A stretch of 64,000 nucleotides of DNA from Neisseria bacilliformis (GTDB lineage Bacteria; Pseudomonadota; Gammaproteobacteria; Burkholderiales; Neisseriaceae). Below are positions 6,026 through 30,960 of the stretch, piece by piece; the stretch's first letter is position 1; each line of letters starts with the position of its first letter. The position numbers were made by a program, and so were the translations under genes. The notes under the pieces were generated by a model. That model saw only the letters and a list, made by a program, of their open reading frames with translations, was not told the DNA's origin and did not search any database. The stretch lies in NCBI RefSeq assembly GCF_014055025.1, contig NZ_CP059571.1, positions 1,922,001 through 1,986,000 on the forward strand, given 5' to 3'.

Positions 6026-6125
6026 ATGCGCGGCTTTGATTCATTTATTTCAAACTGTTGTTTTCAGACGGCCTCACCGCTTGCGCAGAGGCCGTCTGAA
6101 AACCGTTTTAACGGAACACACCACC

Positions 6126-9014
6126 ATGAAAACCTCCGAACTGCGCCAAAAATTCCTCGATTTTTTCCAATCCAAAGGCCACACCGCCGTGCGCTCGTCG
6201 TCATTAGTGCCCCACGACGACCCGACGCTGCTGTTTACCAACGCCGGTATGAACCAGTTTAAAGACGTGTTCCTCGGCTTCGACAAACGCCCCTACACCC
6301 GCGCCACCACCGCGCAAAAATGCGTGCGCGCAGGCGGCAAGCACAACGATTTGGAAAACGTGGGCTACACCGCCCGCCACCACACCTTCTTTGAAATGAT
6401 GGGCAATTTCTCGTTTGGCGACTACTTCAAAAAAGAAGTGATTCCGTTCGCGTGGGAATTTCTCACTTCGCCCGAGTGGCTCAACATTCCCAAAGAAAAA
6501 CTGCTGGTAACCGTGTATGCCGAAGACGATGAAGCCTACAACATTTGGCACGATGTCATCGGCGTGCCTGCCGAGCGCATTGTCCGCATTGGCGACAACA
6601 AAGGCAGCCGCTACGCTTCGGATAACTTCTGGCAGATGGGCGACACCGGCCCCTGCGGCCCCTGCACCGAGATTTTCTACGACCACGGCGAAGAAATCTG
6701 GGGCGGCATTCCGGGCAGCCCCGAAGAAGACGGCGACCGCTGGATTGAGATTTGGAACTGCGTGTTCATGCAGTTCAACCGCGACGAGCAAGGCAATATG
6801 AATCCGCTGCCCAAGCCCTCTGTCGATACCGGCATGGGTTTGGAGCGCATGGCCGCGGTGATGCAGGGCGTGCACAGCAACTATGAAATCGACCTGTTCC
6901 AAGACCTGCTCAAAGCCGTTGCCCGCGAAACTGGCACGGCGTTCAGCATGGAAGAGCCCAGCCTGAAAGTGATTGCCGACCATATCCGCTCGTGTTCCTT
7001 CCTGATTGCCGACGGCGTGATGCCCAGCAACGAAGGGCGCGGCTATGTGTTGCGCCGCATTATCCGCCGCGCCGTGCGCCACGGTTACAAACTCGGTCAG
7101 AAAAACGCCTTTTTCTACAAACTCGTGCCCGATTTGGTGAAAGAAATGGGCGGCGCGTATCCCGAGTTGAAAGAAAAACAAACGCATATTATGGAAGTGT
7201 TGCGCGGCGAAGAAATGCGCTTCGGCGAAACGCTGGAAAAAGGCATGGGCTTGTTCAACCAAGTGTGGGACGCGATGCAGTTCGCCAAATTGGAAAGCCT
7301 GTTGCCGATGGACGGCGTGGGCGAGCCGTTGCGATTGACCACCGCAGACGGTGTAGCGTTTACCGTGGTTTCGCGCAATGCGGGCAACGGCAAACAAATC
7401 GTGGTGCGCCCGCAGGTTTCAGGCAGCCTGAACGAAAGTTTCGCCTTTAATATGGAAGACGTGATCACCAAAGAAAAACCCGAAGCCCACCGCGCTTACG
7501 GCGAAGCCCTGCAAGGCTACCTGAAAAACAATATCGCCAACAGCAAGCTGATTATGTCGGGCGAACACATCTTCAAACTCTACGACACCTACGGCTTCCC
7601 CTATGACTTAACCGCCGACATGGCGCGCGAATTGGGCATCGAGTTGGACGAAGAAGGCTTTGAGCGCGAAATGGAAGCCCAACGCGCCCGCGCCCGCGCC
7701 GCGCAAAACTTCAAAGCCAACGCACAAGTGGCGTATGACGGCGCAGAAACCCAGTTCCACGGCTACGACAAACGCAGCCTTGACGCAACCGTGCTGGCAC
7801 TCTACCGCGATGGCGAAGCCGTAAACCAACTGAACGCAGGCGAAGCAGGCATTGTTGTGCTCGACCATACTCCGTTCTACGCCGAATCGGGCGGGCAAGT
7901 CGGCGACGTCGGCTTTATTTTCAGCGGCAAAAACCGCTTTGCAGTGGAAGACACGCAAAAAATCAAAGCCGCCGTGCACGGACATTTCGGCACGCTGGTT
8001 TCAGGCAGCCTGAAAGTCGGCGACAGCATTTGCGCCGAAGTGGATAACGCCGTGCGCGAAGCCATCATGCGCAACCACAGCGTGACCCACCTGATGCACA
8101 AAGCCCTGCGCGATGTTTTGGGCACACACGTCGAACAAAAAGGCAGCCTGCAAAACGCCGAGCTGACCCGCTTCGACATCTCCCATCCGCAAGGCATCAG
8201 CGCGGAAGAAATCGCCGAAGTCGAACGCCGCGTCAACGCCGCGATTATCGCCAACGTGCCCGTCAAAGTGGAAACCATGTCCATTGAAGACGCGCAAAAA
8301 TCAGGCGCAGTCATGCTCTTCGGCGAAAAATACGGCGACTTCGTCCGCGTCATCACCATGGGCGACTACTCCATCGAACTGTGCGGCGGTACCCACGTCA
8401 CCCGCACCGGTGACATCGGCTTCTTCAAAATCATCAGCGAAGGCGGCATCGCCGCAGGCATCCGCCGCGTAGAAGCCATCACAGGCCTTGCTGCGCTGGC
8501 ATGGGCGCAAAACCAAGAAAGCCTGATGAAAAACATCATCGCCGAAGTCAAAGCCCAAACCGAAAAAGACGTACTCGCCAAAATCCAAGCCAACGCCGCA
8601 AACACCAAAGCCTTGGAAAAAGAGTTGGCAAAAGCCAAAGCCGAACTCGCCGTCCACGCAGGCGCCAAACTCCTGGACAACGCCAAAGACTTGGGCACAG
8701 CCAAACTCGTCGCCGCCCAAATCGAAGCCGACGCAGCCGCCCTGCGCGAAATCGTTACCGATTTAACCGGCAAATCCGACAACGCCGTGATTCTTTTGGC
8801 AGCAGTGAACAACAGCAAAGTCTCCCTGTGCGCCGGCGTATCCAAGCCGCTGACAAACAAAGTAAAAGCCGGCGACTTGGTCAAATTCGCAGCCGAACAA
8901 GTCGGCGGCAAAGGTGGCGGCAGACCGGATTTGGCGCAGGCGGGGGGTACGGATGCTTCCCAAGTCGGCACGATGCTGGATTCGGCAGAAGGCTGGGTTA
9001 GAGAGAAGCTGTAG
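6126..9014 (+). CDS. alaS: Alanyl-tRNA synthetase (with an extra internal segment)
   Basis: This 962-residue enzyme charges tRNA-Ala. In order it has the class II catalytic core ([29 protein letters not shown]), the editing domain with HSVTHLMH and the LCGGTHV zinc site, a coiled coil, and the C-Ala domain ([17 protein letters not shown]). It is about 85-90 residues longer than the usual 875. The excess lies between [13 protein letters not shown] and [14 protein letters not shown], at about residues 380-476, in the linker before the tRNA-recognition helices. Uptake sequences inside the gene are AGGCAGCCTGAA (7421-7432 and 8003-8014), not the AG-DUS of the rest of the window, and the terminator carries AGGCTGCCTGAA. 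This suggests import from a relative such as Kingella or Simonsiella. Confidence 0.95.
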
Positions 9015-9024
9015 TTAGAAAAGT

Positions 9025-9061
9025 GCAGGCTGCCTGAAAGTAGGTTTTCAGGCAGCCTGTA
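9025..9061 (+). terminator. Terminator built from a foreign uptake-sequence dialect
   Basis: AGGCTGCCTGAA (9027-9038) and its exact complement (9048-9059) form the stem. This is the simDUS form, not AG-DUS. Confidence 0.75.
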
Positions 9062-9094
9062 ATCATATTTGGAAAGTTATATTAAGGGATGAAA

Positions 9095-10897
9095 ATGGCT
9101 AAATATTCAGTAAACCAATATCCAGTTGAAACGTTACTCTCTTGGATAAAATCGGGAGAAATTGCTATTCCCGAAATTCAGCGTCCTTTTGTTTGGAATA
9201 ACAGCAAAGTGCGTGATTTACTCGATTCACTTTATAAAGGCTATCCTGTCGGATATATTATTACTTGGCGTAACCCTGATGTCCGCCTAAAAGATGGCAC
9301 ATTATCCAAAGGGAAACGGGTGTTAATAGACGGGCAGCAGCGGATTACCGCATTGACAGCAGCCATTGTTGGACAAGAAATTCTCAATAAGGACTATAAA
9401 CATACCAAAATCCGTATTGCCTATAATCCTCTGGCAGAAGCTGGGCAGCCCGTATTTGAAGTAGCCAATTCCGCCATTGAACGTAATCCTATATGGATTA
9501 CTGATGTTTCCCCTATCCTTAACGGGGCAATCTCTCTTCGCGATGCCAGACGAAACTATATGGCAACCAATCCCCAAGTTGATGAAGACGAAGTGGAAGA
9601 GAAAATCAACGCCTTGCAGTCAATTAAAAATCGGCAGATCGGTATTATCGAATTGAACGATGATTTAGATATTGACACCGTAACCGAGATATTTATCCGT
9701 ATCAATCAAAAAGGTGTAGTTCTCAGTAATGCAGATTTTGTGATGTCCAAGATTGCCGCAGATCAAAAGTACGGGGGCAATATATTGCGGAAAATGATTG
9801 ATTATTTCTGCCACCTTTTGAACGATAAGGAATTTCTCAATAGTATTGAAACAAATGATGTTGAATTTTCCCAATCCTCAAATTATCGACTTATGAAATG
9901 GATTGCCAACAAACCAGACAATCTCTACTGTCCAGACTACATTGATGTATTAAGGACAGCTTATACTTACGCATTCAAGCGTGGGAAATTCAGTGATTTG
10001 GTTGCCCTACTTTCCGGTCGTGATTTTGAAAAGCGGACAAATACAGAAGAAATTGCCGAGAAAAGCTACCGAATGCTGCATGATGGTTTACAGGCATTTT
10101 TCAATCAAACCCATTACCAACGTTTCTTGATGGTGGTTAAGTCGGCTGGGTTTATTCATAAAAAACTGCTCAATTCACAAAACAGCCTGAATATGACTTA
10201 TGCCATATATCTCCATTTGAGCGGACTAAAAATAAGCGAGCATCAAATACAACAATGGGTTAAAAAATGGCTGGTCATGTCCATATTGACTGGGCGTTAT
10301 TCCGGTTCGGCAGAAACCGCTTTTGAACGCGATATCCGCCAAATTTCGGAAAAAGGCATTGAAGCCTGTCTAGAACAAATCGAGTTGGCAGAACTTAATG
10401 AAGGATTTTGGGAACACGGATTGGTCAGTCAGCTTGACTCGTCAAGCAGCACAAACAACGCTTATTTATGTTATCTTGCCGCGCAATGCAAAAACCAAGA
10501 ATGTGCGTTTTTATCGGACAGCGTTAAAATTTCCCATCTATTGGAACATCGTGGCGACGAACACCACTTATTCCCTAAAGCTTACCTGAGTGCAGCTGGT
10601 TATAAAAAAAGCGAATATAATCAGGTTGCCAATTATGTATTTACCGAACAGCAGAGTAATGTCCGCCTTTCCGATAAAGCTCCTGACGAATATTTCAAAT
10701 TAATTAAAGAAGATATAGAAACGGGTAATAAACACTATACTTCACTGGCTTCCCTTGATGCCTTGCAAAAAAATCTGACAGAAAATTGCATTCCTGAAAA
10801 TTATCAGGATTTCAATAGTGATTCATACCCAAAATTTTTATCGGATCGGCGTAAACTTATGGCGGAGAAAATCCATTCTTTTTATGACAGCTTGTAA
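9095..10897 (+). CDS. DUF262/DUF1524 protein, GmrSD-like candidate defence nuclease
   Basis: This is a roughly 600-residue protein. The N-terminal DUF262 domain shows IPEIQRPFVW, YPVGYIITW and the ParB/Srx-like NTP motif LIDGQQRITAL near residue 80. The C-terminal part carries DEHHLFPKAY at about residue 488 with NVRLSD downstream, a His-Me-finger pattern as in DUF1524. This domain pair defines GmrSD-type modification-dependent (type IV) restriction enzymes, and many relatives are antiphage genes. The ATG at 9095 is preferred over 9089 because AAGGG at 9084-9088 is correctly spaced for it. The gene is clearly AT-richer than its neighbours and stands alone, between a simDUS terminator and repeats. 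No partner methylase or helicase is adjacent, so the defence role is an inference. Confidence 0.82.
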   Translation: MAKYSVNQYPVETLLSWIKSGEIAIPEIQRPFVWNNSKVRDLLDSLYKGYPVGYIITWRNPDVRLKDGTLSKGKRVLIDGQQRITALTAAIVGQEILNKDYKHTKIRIAYNPLAEAGQPVFEVANSAIERNPIWITDVSPILNGAISLRDARRNYMATNPQVDEDEVEEKINALQSIKNRQIGIIELNDDLDIDTVTEIFIRINQKGVVLSNADFVMSKIAADQKYGGNILRKMIDYFCHLLNDKEFLNSIETNDVEFSQSSNYRLMKWIANKPDNLYCPDYIDVLRTAYTYAFKRGKFSDLVALLSGRDFEKRTNTEEIAEKSYRMLHDGLQAFFNQTHYQRFLMVVKSAGFIHKKLLNSQNSLNMTYAIYLHLSGLKISEHQIQQWVKKWLVMSILTGRYSGSAETAFERDIRQISEKGIEACLEQIELAELNEGFWEHGLVSQLDSSSSTNNAYLCYLAAQCKNQECAFLSDSVKISHLLEHRGDEHHLFPKAYLSAAGYKKSEYNQVANYVFTEQQSNVRLSDKAPDEYFKLIKEDIETGNKHYTSLASLDALQKNLTENCIPENYQDFNSDSYPKFLSDRRKLMAEKIHSFYDSL

Positions 10898-11317
10898 TAG
10901 CAAGCCGTAGCCCGCACCCCTGCCAACCGCGTGCGTGGCTACGCCCCACACCCTACCTGCGGGCGACGCAAACCTTAAGATTGAGGTGTAGGATGTGTGC
11001 AGTACGCACGCACACGTTTTTTGTTGCTACCGAATGATTTCAAACCATGCCGTAATTCAGTCGGCAGCAACGCAGCTTGATCCATGACCCAACGAAATCC
11101 TCATATCACTTGTAATATTAAAGCTGCCTGAAAAATAATTTTCAGACGACCTCTCTCTATCAAAAGCAGCCTGCACTTTCAAAAATCGAAGTGCAGGCTG
11201 TTTTTTATAATAATTATAAAAATTAGAAAAAAACGCGCAATATTTTTATACTGTACATCATGTAGCAGGCCATACCTGCTCTCCTGCCAACTTATTTACT
11301 GAACGAACAGGAATAAC
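10898..11317. other. Intergenic region with mixed-dialect uptake sequences
   Basis: No gene is seen. The left part (about 10904-11016) has a divergent pair of GTAGGGTGTGT-family repeat units. Then come AAGCTGCCTGAA (11121-11132) facing the complement of AGGTCGTCTGAA (11141-11152), a mixed-dialect hairpin, and AAGCAGCCTGCA at 11164-11175 inside a terminator. The rest is AT-rich leader for the next gene. Confidence 0.65.
11167..11206. terminator. Hairpin with T6 tail
   Basis: CAGCCTGCACTT pairs with AAGTGCAGGCTG, followed by TTTTTT. The left arm includes the king3-type uptake sequence AAGCAGCCTGCA. Confidence 0.7.
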
Positions 11318-12139
11318 ATGCAGAACCTCTCTTCAAAAAAACCGACAGCCGGTTATTCGCATCCGTGGCAATACTTTCTGCTGGTGTACGCTATGAGTGC
11401 GCCGTTTTGGTTGCTGTCTTTGTTTCTCAAACACAGTCCTCTGCCTGATAATCTGCCGCTGACCGACATCGGCGCGGCGCTCACCCCGACGGTTACCGCC
11501 GCATTGTTGCGTTACCGCGAGGGAGGAATGGCGGCGGTGCGCGGACTGTTTGGACGTGTGTTTGATTACGGGCGGATCAAGCATTCTGCCTATTTTTGGA
11601 CGGCAATACTGATTTTCCCCCTGCTTTATCTGCTGACTTATGTTGTGATACGCCAAACAGGACAAACCATACCTGCCTTCTCCGTATCGTTTGCGCCGCT
11701 CGCTGGGGCATTCGTCATGTTCTTTATCGCGGCAGTTGCCGAGGAATTGGGCTATGCCGCCTACGCCACGGAAAGTCTGCAACGGTGTTTTACCCCGCTC
11801 ATTACGGCGCTGATTATCGGGGTGCCGTGGGCATTGTGGCATTTGCCGTCCATGATTGCCGTGGGGCAATCTGCCGAACTGATCGCATGGGGGCTGGCAG
11901 GGACGGTTGCCGTGAGGATTATCTATGTATGGCTGTATAACGGCAGTGGCGGCTCGGTATTTGTATTGATCGCGTGTCACACGGTTGCCAATACCGCGCG
12001 CACAGGCTTCCCGGGCGGACGGGCAGCATATGAAAACGGAGATGGGATGATTCCATATGGAATTATCATCATCGCGGCGGCAATTGTGATGGGTTTTTGG
12101 CGTAAGGCGATGTGTTCATCTGATAGCAAGCAGGCGTAG
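11318..12139 (+). CDS. CPBP-family intramembrane metalloprotease
   Basis: This 273-residue polytopic membrane protein (about seven or eight segments) belongs to the CPBP/Abi (Rce1-like) family. The putative metal site is EELGYAAY (about residue 141), the second motif is ALWHLPSM, and a final histidine lies in IACHTVANTA. The usual EExxxR motif has Tyr/Ala where Arg is common, so activity is uncertain. AGGA precedes the ATG at 11318 by six bases. The substrate is unknown; relatives process prenylated proteins or act in bacteriocin self-immunity. The gene stands alone. Confidence 0.82.
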   Translation: MQNLSSKKPTAGYSHPWQYFLLVYAMSAPFWLLSLFLKHSPLPDNLPLTDIGAALTPTVTAALLRYREGGMAAVRGLFGRVFDYGRIKHSAYFWTAILIFPLLYLLTYVVIRQTGQTIPAFSVSFAPLAGAFVMFFIAAVAEELGYAAYATESLQRCFTPLITALIIGVPWALWHLPSMIAVGQSAELIAWGLAGTVAVRIIYVWLYNGSGGSVFVLIACHTVANTARTGFPGGRAAYENGDGMIPYGIIIIAAAIVMGFWRKAMCSSDSKQA

Positions 12140-12264
12140 GCCGAGCCATATTCCAACAAAACCTTCAATCCTGCCAAGATATTGGGATTTATCAATCCAA
12201 CCTATGACGGCACGCCTTGGGTTAGAATAGGATTGTTTCGTTTGTAACCGGACAGGAGAAAACC

Positions 12265-12761
12265 ATGAGAGTAACGAGTGCGGCCATTGTTAATGGTGAG
12301 TTTGAAGATAAATACGGCAAGCGGGGCGGGCAGTTTAGTCCGAACGGGATGCCGACTTATTCGGTGCCGTTTGAGATCAGCGGTGCGCCGGAGGGGACGA
12401 AATCGTTTGCGGTGGTGTTGGAGGACAAGGATGCGATTACGGCGAGCGGTTTTGTGTGGATACATTGGCTGATAGCGGATTTGGAGCGTACTTCGGTGGC
12501 GGAAAACGACAGTATTTCGGCCACAGATTATGTGCAGGGCGCGAACAGCTGGGCAAGCGTGCTGGGCAAACTCAGCATCGAAGAAGCCTCCCGCTACGGC
12601 GGCATGGCACCGCCCAACTGCCGCCCCGCTACGAACTCATCGTCTACGCGCTCGATACCAAACTCAATCTACCAAAGGGCTTCCGCTTCAACGACCTCCA
12701 CTTCGCCATGCAGGGCCACATCCTCGCCAGCGCGTCGGTGATGGGGACGTATGACGCGTAA
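12265..12761 (+). pseudogene. YbhB/YbcL-type PEBP protein, frameshifted
   Basis: The first frame encodes a phosphatidylethanolamine-binding-protein-like chain: FSPNGMPTYSVPFEISG, VVLEDKDA, SGFVWIHWLIADL, QGANSWASVLG and SRYGGMAPPN. At 12619-12630 the frame is lost. The family continuation (RYELIVYALDTKLNLPKGF, then ASASVMGTYDA) is in the next frame, ending at 12761. One missing base near CTGCCGCCCCGCTAC explains it; restored, the protein has about 165 residues. AGGAG precedes the ATG. Either a recent pseudogene or a sequencing error. The family's ligand and role in bacteria are unclear. Confidence 0.8.
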
Positions 12762-12771
12762 CACATGATGC

Positions 12772-12811
12772 AAAGAGGCCGTCTGAAAACAGGTTTTCAG
12801 ACGGCCTCTTT
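12772..12811. terminator. DUS-pair terminator
   Basis: AAAGAGGCCGTCTGAAAAC and its complement form a long stem between two convergent genes. Confidence 0.75.
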
Positions 12812-26127: not shown

Positions 26128-26263
26128 AATACGCTTTGAGGCCGTCTGAAAAGCATATAAAGGCCGTCTGAAAAACCGTTTTGGCTTTGCCGGAACGCTG
26201 TTTCAGACGGCCTCCGTGCGTTTTCCCGCCGCTCCCGCCGTCAAGCCGCGCAAGGGAAAGTGC

Positions 26264-26269
26264 TACAAT
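26264..26269 (+). promoter_or_regulatory. -10 candidate for uvrA
   Basis: TACAAT lies 38 bases before the chosen uvrA ATG and overlaps an upstream in-frame ATG, arguing against that earlier start. Confidence 0.4.
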
Positions 26270-26306
26270 GCGCGGTTTCTTTTTATTCGAGTTTTCCGGC
26301 TTCATC

Positions 26307-29156
26307 ATGTGCAACCACAACCACCCACACCCCACCCGCGACCACGACACCATCCGCATCCGCGGCGCGCGCACGCATAATTTGAAAAACGTCGATTTGG
26401 ACATTCCGCGCCACAGGCTGGTGGTGGTAACGGGTTTATCGGGCAGCGGCAAGTCGTCGCTGGCGTTTGACACGCTGTATGCCGAGGGGCAGCGGCGTTA
26501 TGTAGAGAGCTTGTCCGCCTATGCGCGGCAGTTTTTGCAGATGATGGACAAGCCCGATGTGGACTTGATTGAGGGCTTGTCGCCGGCGATTTCCATTGAG
26601 CAGAAATCCACCAGCCACAACCCGCGCTCCACCGTGGGCACGGTTACGGAAATCCATGATTATCTGCGCCTTTTATACGCCCGCATCGGCACGCCGTATT
26701 GCCCAGAGCATGATTTGCCGTTGGCGAGCCAAACCGTGTCGCAGATGGTGGATGCCGTCTTAAAGCTGCCTGAAGACACGCGCGTGATGATACTGGCCCC
26801 CGCTGTGCGCGAGCGCAAGGGCGAGTTTGTGGATTTTTTTGCCGACTTGCAGGCGCAGGGCTTTGCCCGCGTGCGCGTGGACGGCGCGGTGTACAGTTTG
26901 GACGAAGTGCCGAAGCTGGAAAAAAACATCAAGCACAATATTGATGTGGTTATCGACCGCGTAAAAGTGAAAGCCGATATTCAACAACGGCTTGCCGAAA
27001 GTTTTGAAACCGCGCTGCGCCACGGCAACGAGCGTGCGCTGGCAATGGAAATGGACAGCGGCGAAGAGCATTGGTTTTCCGCCCGCTTCGCCTGCCCCGT
27101 CTGCTCATACAGCCTGCCTGAGCTTGAACCGCGCCTGTTTTCTTTCAACAACCCCGTCGGCGCGTGCTCGAGCTGCGATGGCTTGGGTAGCATGAATTTT
27201 TTTGACGACAGCAAAGTTGTCGCCCACCCCGAATTGTCGCTGGCGGCGGGCGCGATTAAGGGCTGGGACAAGCGCAACCAGTTCTATTTCCAAATGATTC
27301 AGTCGCTGGCGCGGCATTATGATTTTGACGTGAACACGCCGTTTGAAAAGCTGCCTGAAAAAATCCGCAAAATCGTGTTGCACGGCTCGGGCAAAGAAAG
27401 CATTGATTTCACTTACCTTTCCGAGCGCGGCACCACATTCAACCGCAGCCACGCCTTTGAAGGCATCATCCCCAATCTGGAACGCCGCTACCGCGAAACC
27501 GACTCGCCCACCGTGCGCGAGCAGCTTGCCGAATACCAAAGCCACCGCGCCTGCCCGTCGTGCGCCGGTGCGCGTTTGCGCCGCGAAGCCCGTTATGTGT
27601 ATGTCGGCAAACAGCCGCTGCACGAAATCTCCGCATGGCCGCTTACGCAAACCCACCAGTTCTTTGAAACCCTTGATTTGGACGGCAACAAAAAACAAAT
27701 CGCCGAAAAAATCCTCAAAGAAATCACCGAGCGGCTCGGCTTCCTGATTAACGTCGGGCTGGATTACCTGAATCTCTCCCGTTCCGCCGAAACCCTCTCC
27801 GGCGGCGAAGCCCAGCGCATCCGCCTCGCCAGCCAAATCGGCAGCGGCCTGACCGGCGTAATGTATGTATTGGACGAACCCTCCATCGGCCTGCACCAGC
27901 GCGACAACGACCGCCTGCTCGCCACCCTCAAACGCCTGCGCGATTTGGGCAATAGCGTGATTGTGGTCGAACACGACGAAGACGCCATCCGCGAAGCCGA
28001 TTTCGTCGTCGATATGGGCCCGGGCGCGGGCGAACACGGCGGCAACGTATTGATTGCCGATACGCCCGAAAACGTCGCCAAATGCGAAAAATCCGTTACC
28101 GGACAATACCTCAGCGGCAAAAAATCCATTGCCGTACCGTCTGAACGCACGCCCGTCAACCCCAACCGAATGCTCGTCCTCAAAGGCGCGCGCGGCAACA
28201 ACCTTAAAAACGTTACCCTCGAACTGCCGCTCGGTTTGATTACCTGCATCACCGGCGTATCCGGCAGCGGCAAATCCACCCTGATTAACGACACCCTCGC
28301 CAAAATCACTGCCCGCGAACTCAACCGCGCCCAAGAAGAACCCGCCCCATACGACGACATCCACGGCCTCGAACACCTCGACAAAGTCATCAACGTCGAC
28401 CAATCCCCCATCGGCCGCACCCCGCGCTCCAATCCCGCCACCTACACCGGCCTGTTCACCCCCATCCGCGAACTCTTCGCTGGCGTACCCCTCTCGCGCG
28501 AACGCGGCTACAACGTCGGCCGATTCTCCTTCAACGTCAAAGGCGGCCGCTGCGAAGCCTGCCAAGGCGACGGCGTCATCAAAGTCGAAATGCACTTCCT
28601 CCCCGACGTGTACGTCCCCTGCGAAGTCTGCCACGGCAAACGCTACAACCGCGAAACCCTCGAAATCCAATACAAAGGCAAAAACATCAGCCAAGTCCTC
28701 GACATGACCGTCGAAGAAGCCCGCGAATTTTTCGACGCCGTCCCCACCGTATCGCGCAAACTGCAAACCCTGATGGACGTAGGCCTGGGCTACATCCGCC
28801 TCGGCCAGTCTGCCACCACCCTCTCCGGCGGCGAAGCCCAGCGCGTCAAACTCGCCTTGGAACTCTCCAAACGCGACACCGGCAGAACACTCTACATCCT
28901 CGACGAACCCACCACCGGCCTGCACTTCGCCGACATCGCCCTGCTGCTGGAAGTCATAGGTCGTCTGAAAGGCAAAGGCAACTCGATTGTGATTATTGAG
29001 CATAATCTTGACGTTATAAAAACAGCTGATTATATTGTGGATTTAGGACCGGAAGGCGGCGATGGAGGGGGAAGAATTATTGCTTCAGGTAGCCCTGAAC
29101 AGGTGGCAAAGGTTAAGGGGAGTTATACTGGGAAGTATTTGAAAGTGGTTTTATAA
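26307..29156 (+). CDS. uvrA: Excinuclease ABC subunit A
   Basis: This 949-residue damage-recognition ATPase starts nucleotide excision repair. It has two ABC modules: Walker [10 protein letters not shown] and GVSGSGKST, signature LSGGEAQRI and LSGGEAQRV. Zinc modules are CPVCSYS...CSSCDGLG and CEACQGDG...CEVCHGKRY. Uptake sequences inside are AAGCTGCCTGAA (26763-26774, 27348-27359) and AGGTCGTCTGAA (28958-28969), not AG-DUS. The last 180 bases are AT-rich with different codon use, although the protein sequence stays family-typical. The gene is a mosaic joined to the foreign block downstream. Confidence 0.96.
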
Positions 29157-29181
29157 TTTCAATATTGATAAGGAAACATAA

Positions 29182-30605
29182 ATGGAATTTAAGGATATCG
29201 AATTTGGCAAAGCATCAGGAGAAACAGAGGGATCTCGTTATCCAGAATTGCTAAAAAAAGCCTATTTAGATTATAAAAACATATACCAAGAAATTGAATC
29301 TGGTAACAATTTCCTTGTATTAGGTCATAAAGGATGCGGCAAATCAGCCATTGCAGAAAAACTACGTTTAGAAGCAAAAGAAAAACGAGTTTCTGTCATT
29401 AGATTGCAAGAATTCCCTTTTAAATCTTTTGGAAAGATTTTTTCAGGTCAAGCTGAACCAGAAGCCAAATACCCAACATCTTGGTCTTGGCTACTTCTAT
29501 TGGCAATAATTGATGAACTAAGACATGATCATGGGGCAAGAGATGCAGTAAATATTGAGTACAATAAAGCTATTGATAAACTTGATGAGTTTGGACTTCT
29601 TTCATCATCAGATTTAAAAAGTGTTGCGGTAAAATCTAGTAAAAAAGAATTTAAAATTCAAATCCCTAAAATTTTAGAGTATTCTACCGCTGGTTCAACT
29701 CAAAGCAACTCATATGAAACAATTTTTACGGATTTAGTTTCTTTTTTAAAAGAATTAGTTATCAGTTATTCTACTGAGGGTGGTCTAATTCTAATAATTG
29801 ATGGTTTAGATGATATTCTAACTTCTAGAGAAGTACAATATCAAGCTCTATCAGCACTAATTTTTGAAGCTGAGAAGCTTAATTTATTATTTTTTTCTAA
29901 CAAAAAAAAATTCATATCGTTATCCTTTGTCGAACTGAACTATATGAAAAACTACCAAACCCAAATAAAAATAAATTAAGAAAAGACTTTGGATTTGAAT
30001 TAAACTGGTATCAAGATACTGATTATGCCGAAGGGTCTAACTTAGTAAAACTAGTAAACTTAAGAGCAAAATTATCTTTTAATAAAGAAATTGATATTTT
30101 TAAGAATTTTTTTCCTGATACTATTAAAGGAAAGCCATCTCTGCAATATTTACTAGAGATGACAAGACATACACCTCGAGACTTTATTAGCATGATGAAC
30201 TGCTTAAAAGAAATTGAGACAAATGGAAAATTCACAGAAAACCTTATCATGCAAGGACTAAAAAGATATTCAATAGACTATTTTGAACCTGAGATACGTG
30301 ATGAAATTGTTGGTTACATCGATATTCATGATTATGAAAGGTTCTATGAAATAATAAGCAAAATTAAACAAAGAGAATTTCCCTATAGTAAATTAAAAGA
30401 AATAAGTGAAGTTTCCAAATTAACTGAAGATAATCTGAAAAAGTTGATGAATGTTTTATACGATTGTGGGGCAATCGGAAATAAGTGGAGCAATGGAACA
30501 TCTAATAGATATGAATTTAAATTTAGAAATAAAAATTCACACTTTAATTCTACTTATACAGTTGTTTTACACAAAGGATTATGGAAGGCATTAAATTTAA
30601 TATAA
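29182..30605 (+). pseudogene. P-loop ATPase (Sll1717-like), frame broken at an A9 tract
   Basis: The first frame (29182-29979, 265 codons) has Walker A LGHKGCGKSA at about residues 47-56 and Walker B LILIIDGLDD at about 203-212. At A9 (29902-29910) the frame is lost. The -1 frame continues without a stop from IHIVILCRTELYEKLPNPNKNKLRKDFG to HKGLWKALNLI at 30605. Restored, the protein has about 474 residues, with a C-terminal winged-helix-like stretch (FPYSKLKEISEVSKLTEDNLKKLM). Overall it resembles Sll1717-type P-loop ATPases, some of which occur in defence loci; that assignment is from memory. One base in the A tract decides the state, so phase variation, slippage, recent decay or an assembly error are all possible. 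Composition is very AT-rich. Confidence 0.75.
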
Positions 30606-30621
30606 CTCCTTAGCAGCAAGC

Positions 30622-30690
30622 GTAGGTTGGGTCAAGACCCAATAAGACCGTAAAACTTATCTGTTTTGTTGGGTTTGCAACCCAACCTAC
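30622..30690. repeat. Double-hairpin repeat, GGGTC core
   Basis: Ends GTAGGTTGGGTC and GACCC.../GTTGGGTTTGCAACCCAACCTAC enclose two small hairpins. Near-identical copies lie at 33744-33812 and 33874-33945. Confidence 0.7.
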
Positions 30691-30782
30691 AACCCTTTCA
30701 GACGGCCTCAAACGCCGTCTGAAAATCCACACCGCCCACCGAGAAACCCCATGCCCCAAAACATCGACCACCAAAGCAAGCC

Positions 30783-30960
30783 GTAGCCCGCATACCCAGC
30801 CGACCGCGTGCGTGGCTACGCCACACACCCTACCGATGAATCACTCGGAACTAAAAACCAACGCGTAGGGTGTGTGCGGTACGCACGCACGCGGTTGCTT
30901 GATTGACGGTTTGCCGTTTCAACTTTTAACTTCGTTGAAGCTAGCGCTTTCAGACGGCCT
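30783..30960. repeat. Direct repeat left of the RAYT gene
   Basis: The segment includes inverted GTAGGGTGTGT units, CCAACGCGTAGGG, TTGACGGTTTGCCGTTT and a GTTGAAGCT...DUS tail. It matches about 31597-31761 in the same order and orientation, with scattered differences. Confidence 0.7.

Follow-up and report, generated by a model that had tools for sequence, protein, structure and literature searches.

A probable cassette-exchange slot at the 3′ side of alaS in Neisseria bacilliformis

The 3′ side of the alaS gene of Neisseria bacilliformis is probably a cassette-exchange slot of the minimal-mobile-element kind, with mucDUS-type arms and swapped cargo that is borne by transformation. Within the window, which is the whole 64-kb stretch of DNA that was analyzed, a block from about position 8063 to 12139 carries two arms that are near those of mucDUS Neisseria, and the cargo between them is different. 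The slot would be bounded on the left by the alaS tail with its terminator and, in ten genomes, on the right by a 214-bp element. Donor DNA would have come from a mucDUS Neisseria, or from a species already holding the same allele, and may have been taken up by natural transformation and integrated through recombination in both arms, carrying a DUF262 gene in. The mixed dialects of uptake sequences (DUS) in this region could then be passengers of present and earlier exchanges, or relics, rather than the mark of one Kingella donor.

The two arms of the block

The alaS gene (6126 to 9014, plus strand; 962 codons with Pfam matches to tRNA-synt_2c, tRNA_SAD, and DHHA1) is a mosaic by the identities of its segments. 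alaS regions were retrieved from 60 of the family's 82 other genomes, and the alignment contains 60 rows including N. bacilliformis (locus L151 of G027, which has a broken frame, was left out). The 3′ part of the gene, spanning 8063 to 8955, is 94.7 to 96.3% identical to the alaS of seven genomes, and the next among the 59 others aligned reaches 83.3%. By the commonest dialect near alaS, these seven comprise four mucDUS genomes (G014, G026, G031, and G034), two AG-DUS genomes (G029 and G020), and one eikDUS genome (G003). The left edge of this tract is sharp and falls at about 8063, with 13 to 15 differences in 8026 to 8075 and 0 to 2 in 8076 to 8125. Left of the edge, the best match among the 59 genomes does not exceed 77.5% over 7526 to 8062 or 87.8% over 6126 to 7259. 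The alignment also places an insert of about 85 residues at about 7260 to 7525, which some Neisseria and genera g2, g5, and g12 have and others lack. The insert sequence is highly variable between carriers, and its tree (six far rows left out, as in the mid-gene tree discussed below) did not resolve.

Over the last 60 codons of alaS (8831 to 9011), identity is 96.7% to G003, 77 to 83% to the six other tract genomes, and 77 to 82% to the mucDUS group. The match to G003 runs from 8055 to 9069 at 95.5% and so takes in the alaS tail and terminator (8956 to 9069, plus strand; type A), where 12-mers are located at 9024(−), 9027(+), and 9047(−). Look-alikes of the type A tail were recognized by eye in G021, G043, and G030. 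Because the end of alaS matches G003 and not the mucDUS group, a single direct transfer does not suffice. Either there were several events or the DNA passed through an intermediate, possibly G020 or G003.

The right arm is 91.6% identical to G026 over 10896 to 12139 and 91.4% identical to G031 over 10961 to 12139. It includes the 214-bp right boundary element (10897 to 11110, plus strand), recognized by alignment and by its matches downstream of alaS. Some match to this element occurs in 34 of 83 genomes, but a full copy is missing from most of the genomes examined; the 11 matches of at least 190 bases lie in 10 of the 83, all downstream of alaS, and the shorter ones are parts, mostly of the first 130 bp. 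By a mechanical ORF call, the start of the element ranges from 11 bp ahead of the last cargo stop to 62 bp past it in eight of the ten genomes, and the element lies 0.15 to 0.35 kb further from that stop in G014 and G026. Two DUS-type hairpins follow (11121 to 11200), composed of the 11121/11141 pair and a king3-type repeat from 11164. The last part of the arm is a gene for a CPBP (Rce1-like) membrane protease assigned by Pfam (11318 to 12139, plus strand), whose product shares 95, 93, and 91% amino acid identity with those of G034, G031, and G026, respectively, each encoded downstream of alaS. The CPBP protein of G037 (94%) is encoded on a different contig from its alaS.

RelA/SpoT served as a control. 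The nearest genome by this locus is G020 (88% amino acid and 79.7% nucleotide identity), and identity to the mucDUS group is 74% at the amino acid and 76 to 77% at the nucleotide level. Trees of the tract and of RelA/SpoT were built from the 29 genomes for which alaS was available together with a RelA/SpoT locus among the 30 best, a set that does not include G003. The RelA/SpoT tree joins N. bacilliformis and G020 with a support of 100, and placement of N. bacilliformis with the four mucDUS genomes is rejected (p-AU 4e-71). In the tract tree, N. bacilliformis, the four mucDUS genomes, G029, and G020 form one clade (support 100) whose internal order does not resolve; neither a grouping with the four mucDUS genomes (p = 0.68) nor one with G020 alone (p = 0.60) is rejected.

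Within the mucDUS group, the tract is 96.8 to 97.7% identical over 8106 to 8830, which is about the RelA/SpoT level of that group (96.3 to 97.6%), whereas the tract identity of N. bacilliformis or G020 to the group far exceeds the RelA/SpoT level. For this reason, we read the mucDUS group as the source. Because the RelA/SpoT sister G020 shares the tract and its grouping alone with N. bacilliformis is not rejected on the tract, we infer, rather than observe, the direct donor and the direction of transfer. Import of this part of alaS is supported, with a mucDUS Neisseria as the best candidate donor rather than Kingella or Simonsiella. An earlier note on this DNA had proposed an imported alaS-DUF262 block. 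Identity and the conflict with the control tree support an imported origin of the spacer, the CPBP gene, and, within alaS, the 3′ part. The alaS gene tree that had been suggested as a check favors import of the 3′ part and not of the remainder.

Uptake-sequence dialects in the block and the genome

Lineages of Neisseriaceae are regarded as isolated from each other by their DUS dialects. Every 12-mer quoted in the earlier note was verified in place. Within alaS, AGGCAGCCTGAA (+) sits at 7421 and 8003 and AGGCAGCCTGCA (+) at 8141. The terminator pair of alaS is AGGCTGCCTGAA at 9027(+) and 9047(−), overlapped by AGGCAGCCTGCA at 9024(−), and the spacer after the DUF262 gene carries AAGCTGCCTGAA at 11121(+), AGGTCGTCTGAA at 11141(−), and AAGCAGCCTGCA at 11164(+). 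The 7421 and 8003 sites form 15-bp palindromes whose opposite strand reads AGGCTGCCTGAA (7418 and 8000), and an additional 12-mer that had gone unlisted, AGGCTACCTGAA, is located at 7514.

The 2.49-Mb genome has 492 copies of the king-type sequence ARGCWRCCTGMA versus one match to a backwards-pattern control, and these 12-mers are therefore not due to chance. The 45 other genomes of the genus carry 11 to 237 king-type sites each (median 50), which makes N. bacilliformis the richest of the genus in this set. AG-DUS totals 3951 in the genome and 103 in the window. The AG-DUS-free gap from 6089 to 12776 (6687 bp) holds 11 king-type sites and one muc-type site. In a sample of 41 stretches (864 kb, about a third of the genome), it is the 4th longest of 1275 AG-DUS gaps, and its king-type count is the highest among the 25 longest gaps listed. 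King-type sites form 60 king-king neighbors, compared with a mean of 22.5 (sd 4.0, maximum 37) in 2000 shuffles, and this clustering rules out an even spread of mixed dialects.

The alaS-DUF262 block is not alone in mixing dialects, and king-type islands are found across the genome. The statement that the window elsewhere uses AG-DUS almost exclusively is not confirmed, given a second mixed patch at 26.7 to 36.2 kb and many further islands genome-wide. The earlier note had also held that mixed dialects spread evenly over the genome would speak against an import; they do occur genome-wide, but in islands rather than evenly. One king-rich island (L182, genome positions 71000 to 81000) is, in its first part, 97% identical to G026 over 4.7 kb and 99% identical to G014 and G032 (2.9 kb), indicating that king-type DNA is a pool common to several Neisseria. 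The longest AG-DUS gap in the 864-kb sample (L187, genome positions 372045 to 386194) spans 14 kb at a GC content of 0.42 and has neither AG-DUS nor king-type sites. The ComP (PF16732) gene was located in the N. bacilliformis genome.

The two king/sim DUS dyads of alaS, a 15-bp palindrome at 7418 to 7432 in the insert region and another at 8000 to 8014, both lie outside the imported tract. The same 15 bases are found at 7418 in G032 and G082, and eight genomes have an AG-DUS at that position. The 8000 to 8014 segment is a DUS slot, filled by a DUS 10-mer of some dialect in 53 of the 60 aligned genomes: 34 have GCCGTCTGAA (AG-type), 7 have GTCGTCTGAA, and 12 have GCAGCCTGAA, the king form, which is carried by ten genomes of other genera, by G037 (wad dialect), and by N. 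bacilliformis. The breakpoint (~8063) is to the right of both alaS king 12-mers, which occupy positions where relatives too carry DUS, for the most part of other dialects. The dyads may have been imported from a king/sim user outside the sample, or they may have been retained from an older dialect.

If retention were the case, the dyads would be relics of an older dialect standing beside an import that covers only 8063 to 12139. We consider this account possible but less likely than not; it fits the widespread filling of the 8000 slot and the king form found there in other genera, G037, and N. bacilliformis. AG-type sites nevertheless occupy this slot in 34 genomes, and other king-type sites lie in islands, one of which is 97 to 99% identical to other Neisseria, a finding that favors imports in general.

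The reading of the earlier note is that one transfer from a Kingella/Simonsiella-like donor of king dialect carried both alaS and the DUF262 gene past the dialect barrier. The dyads at 7418 and 8000 resemble those of king/sim genera, and the mid-gene alaS tree places N. bacilliformis with G037 and G002 (92/76, not starred), both of which have king dyads at 8000. In this tree, the test does not reject uniting it with the king/sim genera (p = 0.26), and the 60 alaS regions include no genome with king3DUS as its main dialect. However, the tract and the right arm both match mucDUS genomes, the segment from 7526 to 8062 is without any match above 77.5%, and the 8141 and 11164 sites are resident at the same places in mucDUS genomes. 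The 15 bases at 8141 are present in nine of the 60 aligned genomes, namely the seven tract genomes, N. bacilliformis, and G082. Thus, AGGCAGCCTGCA at 8141 is ruled out as an independent foreign DUS, and its presence in all seven tract genomes indicates that it arrived with the tract. Likewise, the king3-type repeat from 11164 recurs unchanged in G034 and G026, which indicates arrival with the right arm. The 11121/11141 hairpin is sim-type on its left and muc-type on its right, and its counterparts are AG-type in G034 and muc-type in G026. With arms of mucDUS type and king dyads that fall outside them, transfer of the whole block from one king-dialect donor is improbable. More generally, foreign DUS are weak evidence for a donor, because in this block some sites were already resident in an intermediate species and others occupy widely used slots.

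Cargo at the alaS border and its relation to known systems

The exchange-slot reading that we prefer is also consistent with the turnover of genes at this border. The first ORF downstream of alaS belongs to 34 families in 42 genus loci, compared with 10 families in 45 loci (26 of them in one family) for the first ORF on the upstream side, the one core-gene border used as a control. Judged from names, the first downstream ORF is of restriction or defense type in 12 of the 41 genus loci scanned with Pfam (the 42nd, G051, was scanned only within alignment A1): GmrSD in N. bacilliformis, G034, and G021; AAA_15/AAA_21 in G043, G045, and G048; EcoRI methylase in G030 and G019; MmeI in G012; DndB in G026; and PIN_8 in G016 and G053. 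The other 29 are metabolic, of other kinds, or without a Pfam hit. At 1e-5, PADLOC families number 299 over the 58 downstream first ORFs and 11 over the 61 upstream ones, figures that count overlapping models and not loci. In the exchange-slot reading, different genes, often of restriction type, would be swapped at this border, probably by transformation.

As had been proposed, the block contains a defense-like gene: a low-GC (0.40) gene between the imported arms (9089 to 10897, plus strand) encoding a DUF262 protein of 602 amino acids that matches Pfam GmrSD_N (E 1e-31). Its sole ortholog is encoded at the same place in G034 (66% amino acid identity); in 150-bp steps, the two cargoes are 57 to 74% identical, and the cargoes of G026 and G031 are unrelated. 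Matches to the protein occur in 10 of the 83 family genomes, itself counted, and in 50 of 399 genomes order-wide, where the best outside the family reach 47 to 49%. IMG/VR holds three relatives (65, 49, and 48%), and none of these three loci has alaS. There are 5 matches in phage records and 175 in plasmid records; among the ten of the 175 that were listed the best reaches 51%, and one other match lies in the 60 to 80% band. Together, the IMG/VR, phage, plasmid, and 399 order-genome matches leave the origin of the gene undecided.

Type IV restriction systems of the GmrSD/BrxU kind combine a DUF262 NTPase bearing (I/V)DGQQR with an HNH-like (DUF1524) nuclease and cut modified DNA (PMC10952713). 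The cargo protein likewise has IDGQQR, as well as a C-terminal HHxxP with accompanying Asn residues that resembles an HNH-type site; both motifs (D81-R85 in the first) and the Asn residues are invariant in 11 DUF262 homologues. Unlike those systems, it has no GmrSD_C (DUF1524) match by Pfam, and its match to PDB 7p9k spans 49 residues only (E 1e-7). The AlphaFold model is weak (mean pLDDT 63). The protein is predicted to act on its own as an NTP- and modification-dependent nuclease of the GmrSD or BrxU kind, since several cargoes of the alaS slot are of restriction type.

Both the minimal mobile element principle and the use of foreign DUS as traces of exchange are already in print. Minimal mobile elements (Saunders and Snyder 2002) are regions flanked by two conserved genes that hold different whole-gene cassettes from strain to strain, incorporated solely via homologous recombination (PMC3898611). 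The alaS slot resembles them in its differing whole-gene cassettes, its conserved flanks, its common restriction genes, and its lack of a recognized integrase. Here, alaS is the constant left neighbor, the comparison is among species and not strains, and the long near-identical arms, with no integrase named by Pfam in the first ORFs, would be in line with homologous recombination. In contrast to the published elements, the right-hand gene varies by group, ten genomes share the 214-bp right edge, and the left arm is common to several genera and dialects. The searched literature yielded no account of an alaS slot; the 2007 minimal-mobile-element inventory of Snyder et al. (cited in PMC3898611), which lay beyond that search, may list it.

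Non-native "peregrine" DUS have been described as traces of exchange (PMC3630211), and islands of DUS dialect have been used for finding ICEs (PMC7371117). The alaS block is similar in that exchange is indicated by a non-native dialect where native DUS are scarce. It differs from the island ICEs in being about 4 kb long and in carrying dialects that do not name the donor, and Pfam recognizes neither integrase nor conjugation genes in the alaS 3′, DUF262, and CPBP segments.

Insertion of the cargo as a mobile element that targets the alaS tail and carries its own copy, with no long-arm recombination, is doubtful: by eye, tail and terminator types are common to several lineages and dialects, and G014 (L125) has a second, fragmentary alaS tail 2.15 kb downstream, after its cargo (87% over 147 bp), but such a fragment occurs in 1 of 61 loci, Pfam names no integrase in any of the 42 first downstream ORFs that were scanned one by one (those of 41 genus loci and of G003), and the common left arm of 0.9 kb is longer than an attachment site requires.

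Under the exchange-slot reading, a border with near-identical arms and swapped cargo across dialects makes testable which loci escape isolation and whether immunity genes are what lineages trade. A bolder version, which we put forward tentatively, is that the alaS 3′ border serves as a port for restriction and defense cassettes in Neisseria. Cassettes bearing an alaS tail and terminator of their own, together with a dedicated 214-bp right edge, would circulate between species regardless of dialect (AG, AT, and muc), with the left arm reaching into an eik-dialect genus, and the tail of an essential gene would be co-inherited with immunity genes. If so, dialect barriers would leak at defined ports and not evenly.

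Elsewhere in the window, the stretch from 26181 to 30896 includes uvrA with two copies of AAGCTGCCTGAA and one mucDUS, followed by low-GC ORFs at 29182 to 29976 (AAA/STAND-like) and 30159 to 30602 (no Pfam hit) and by a partial copy of the right boundary element (78% over 122 bp). This stretch may be another slot built in the same way.
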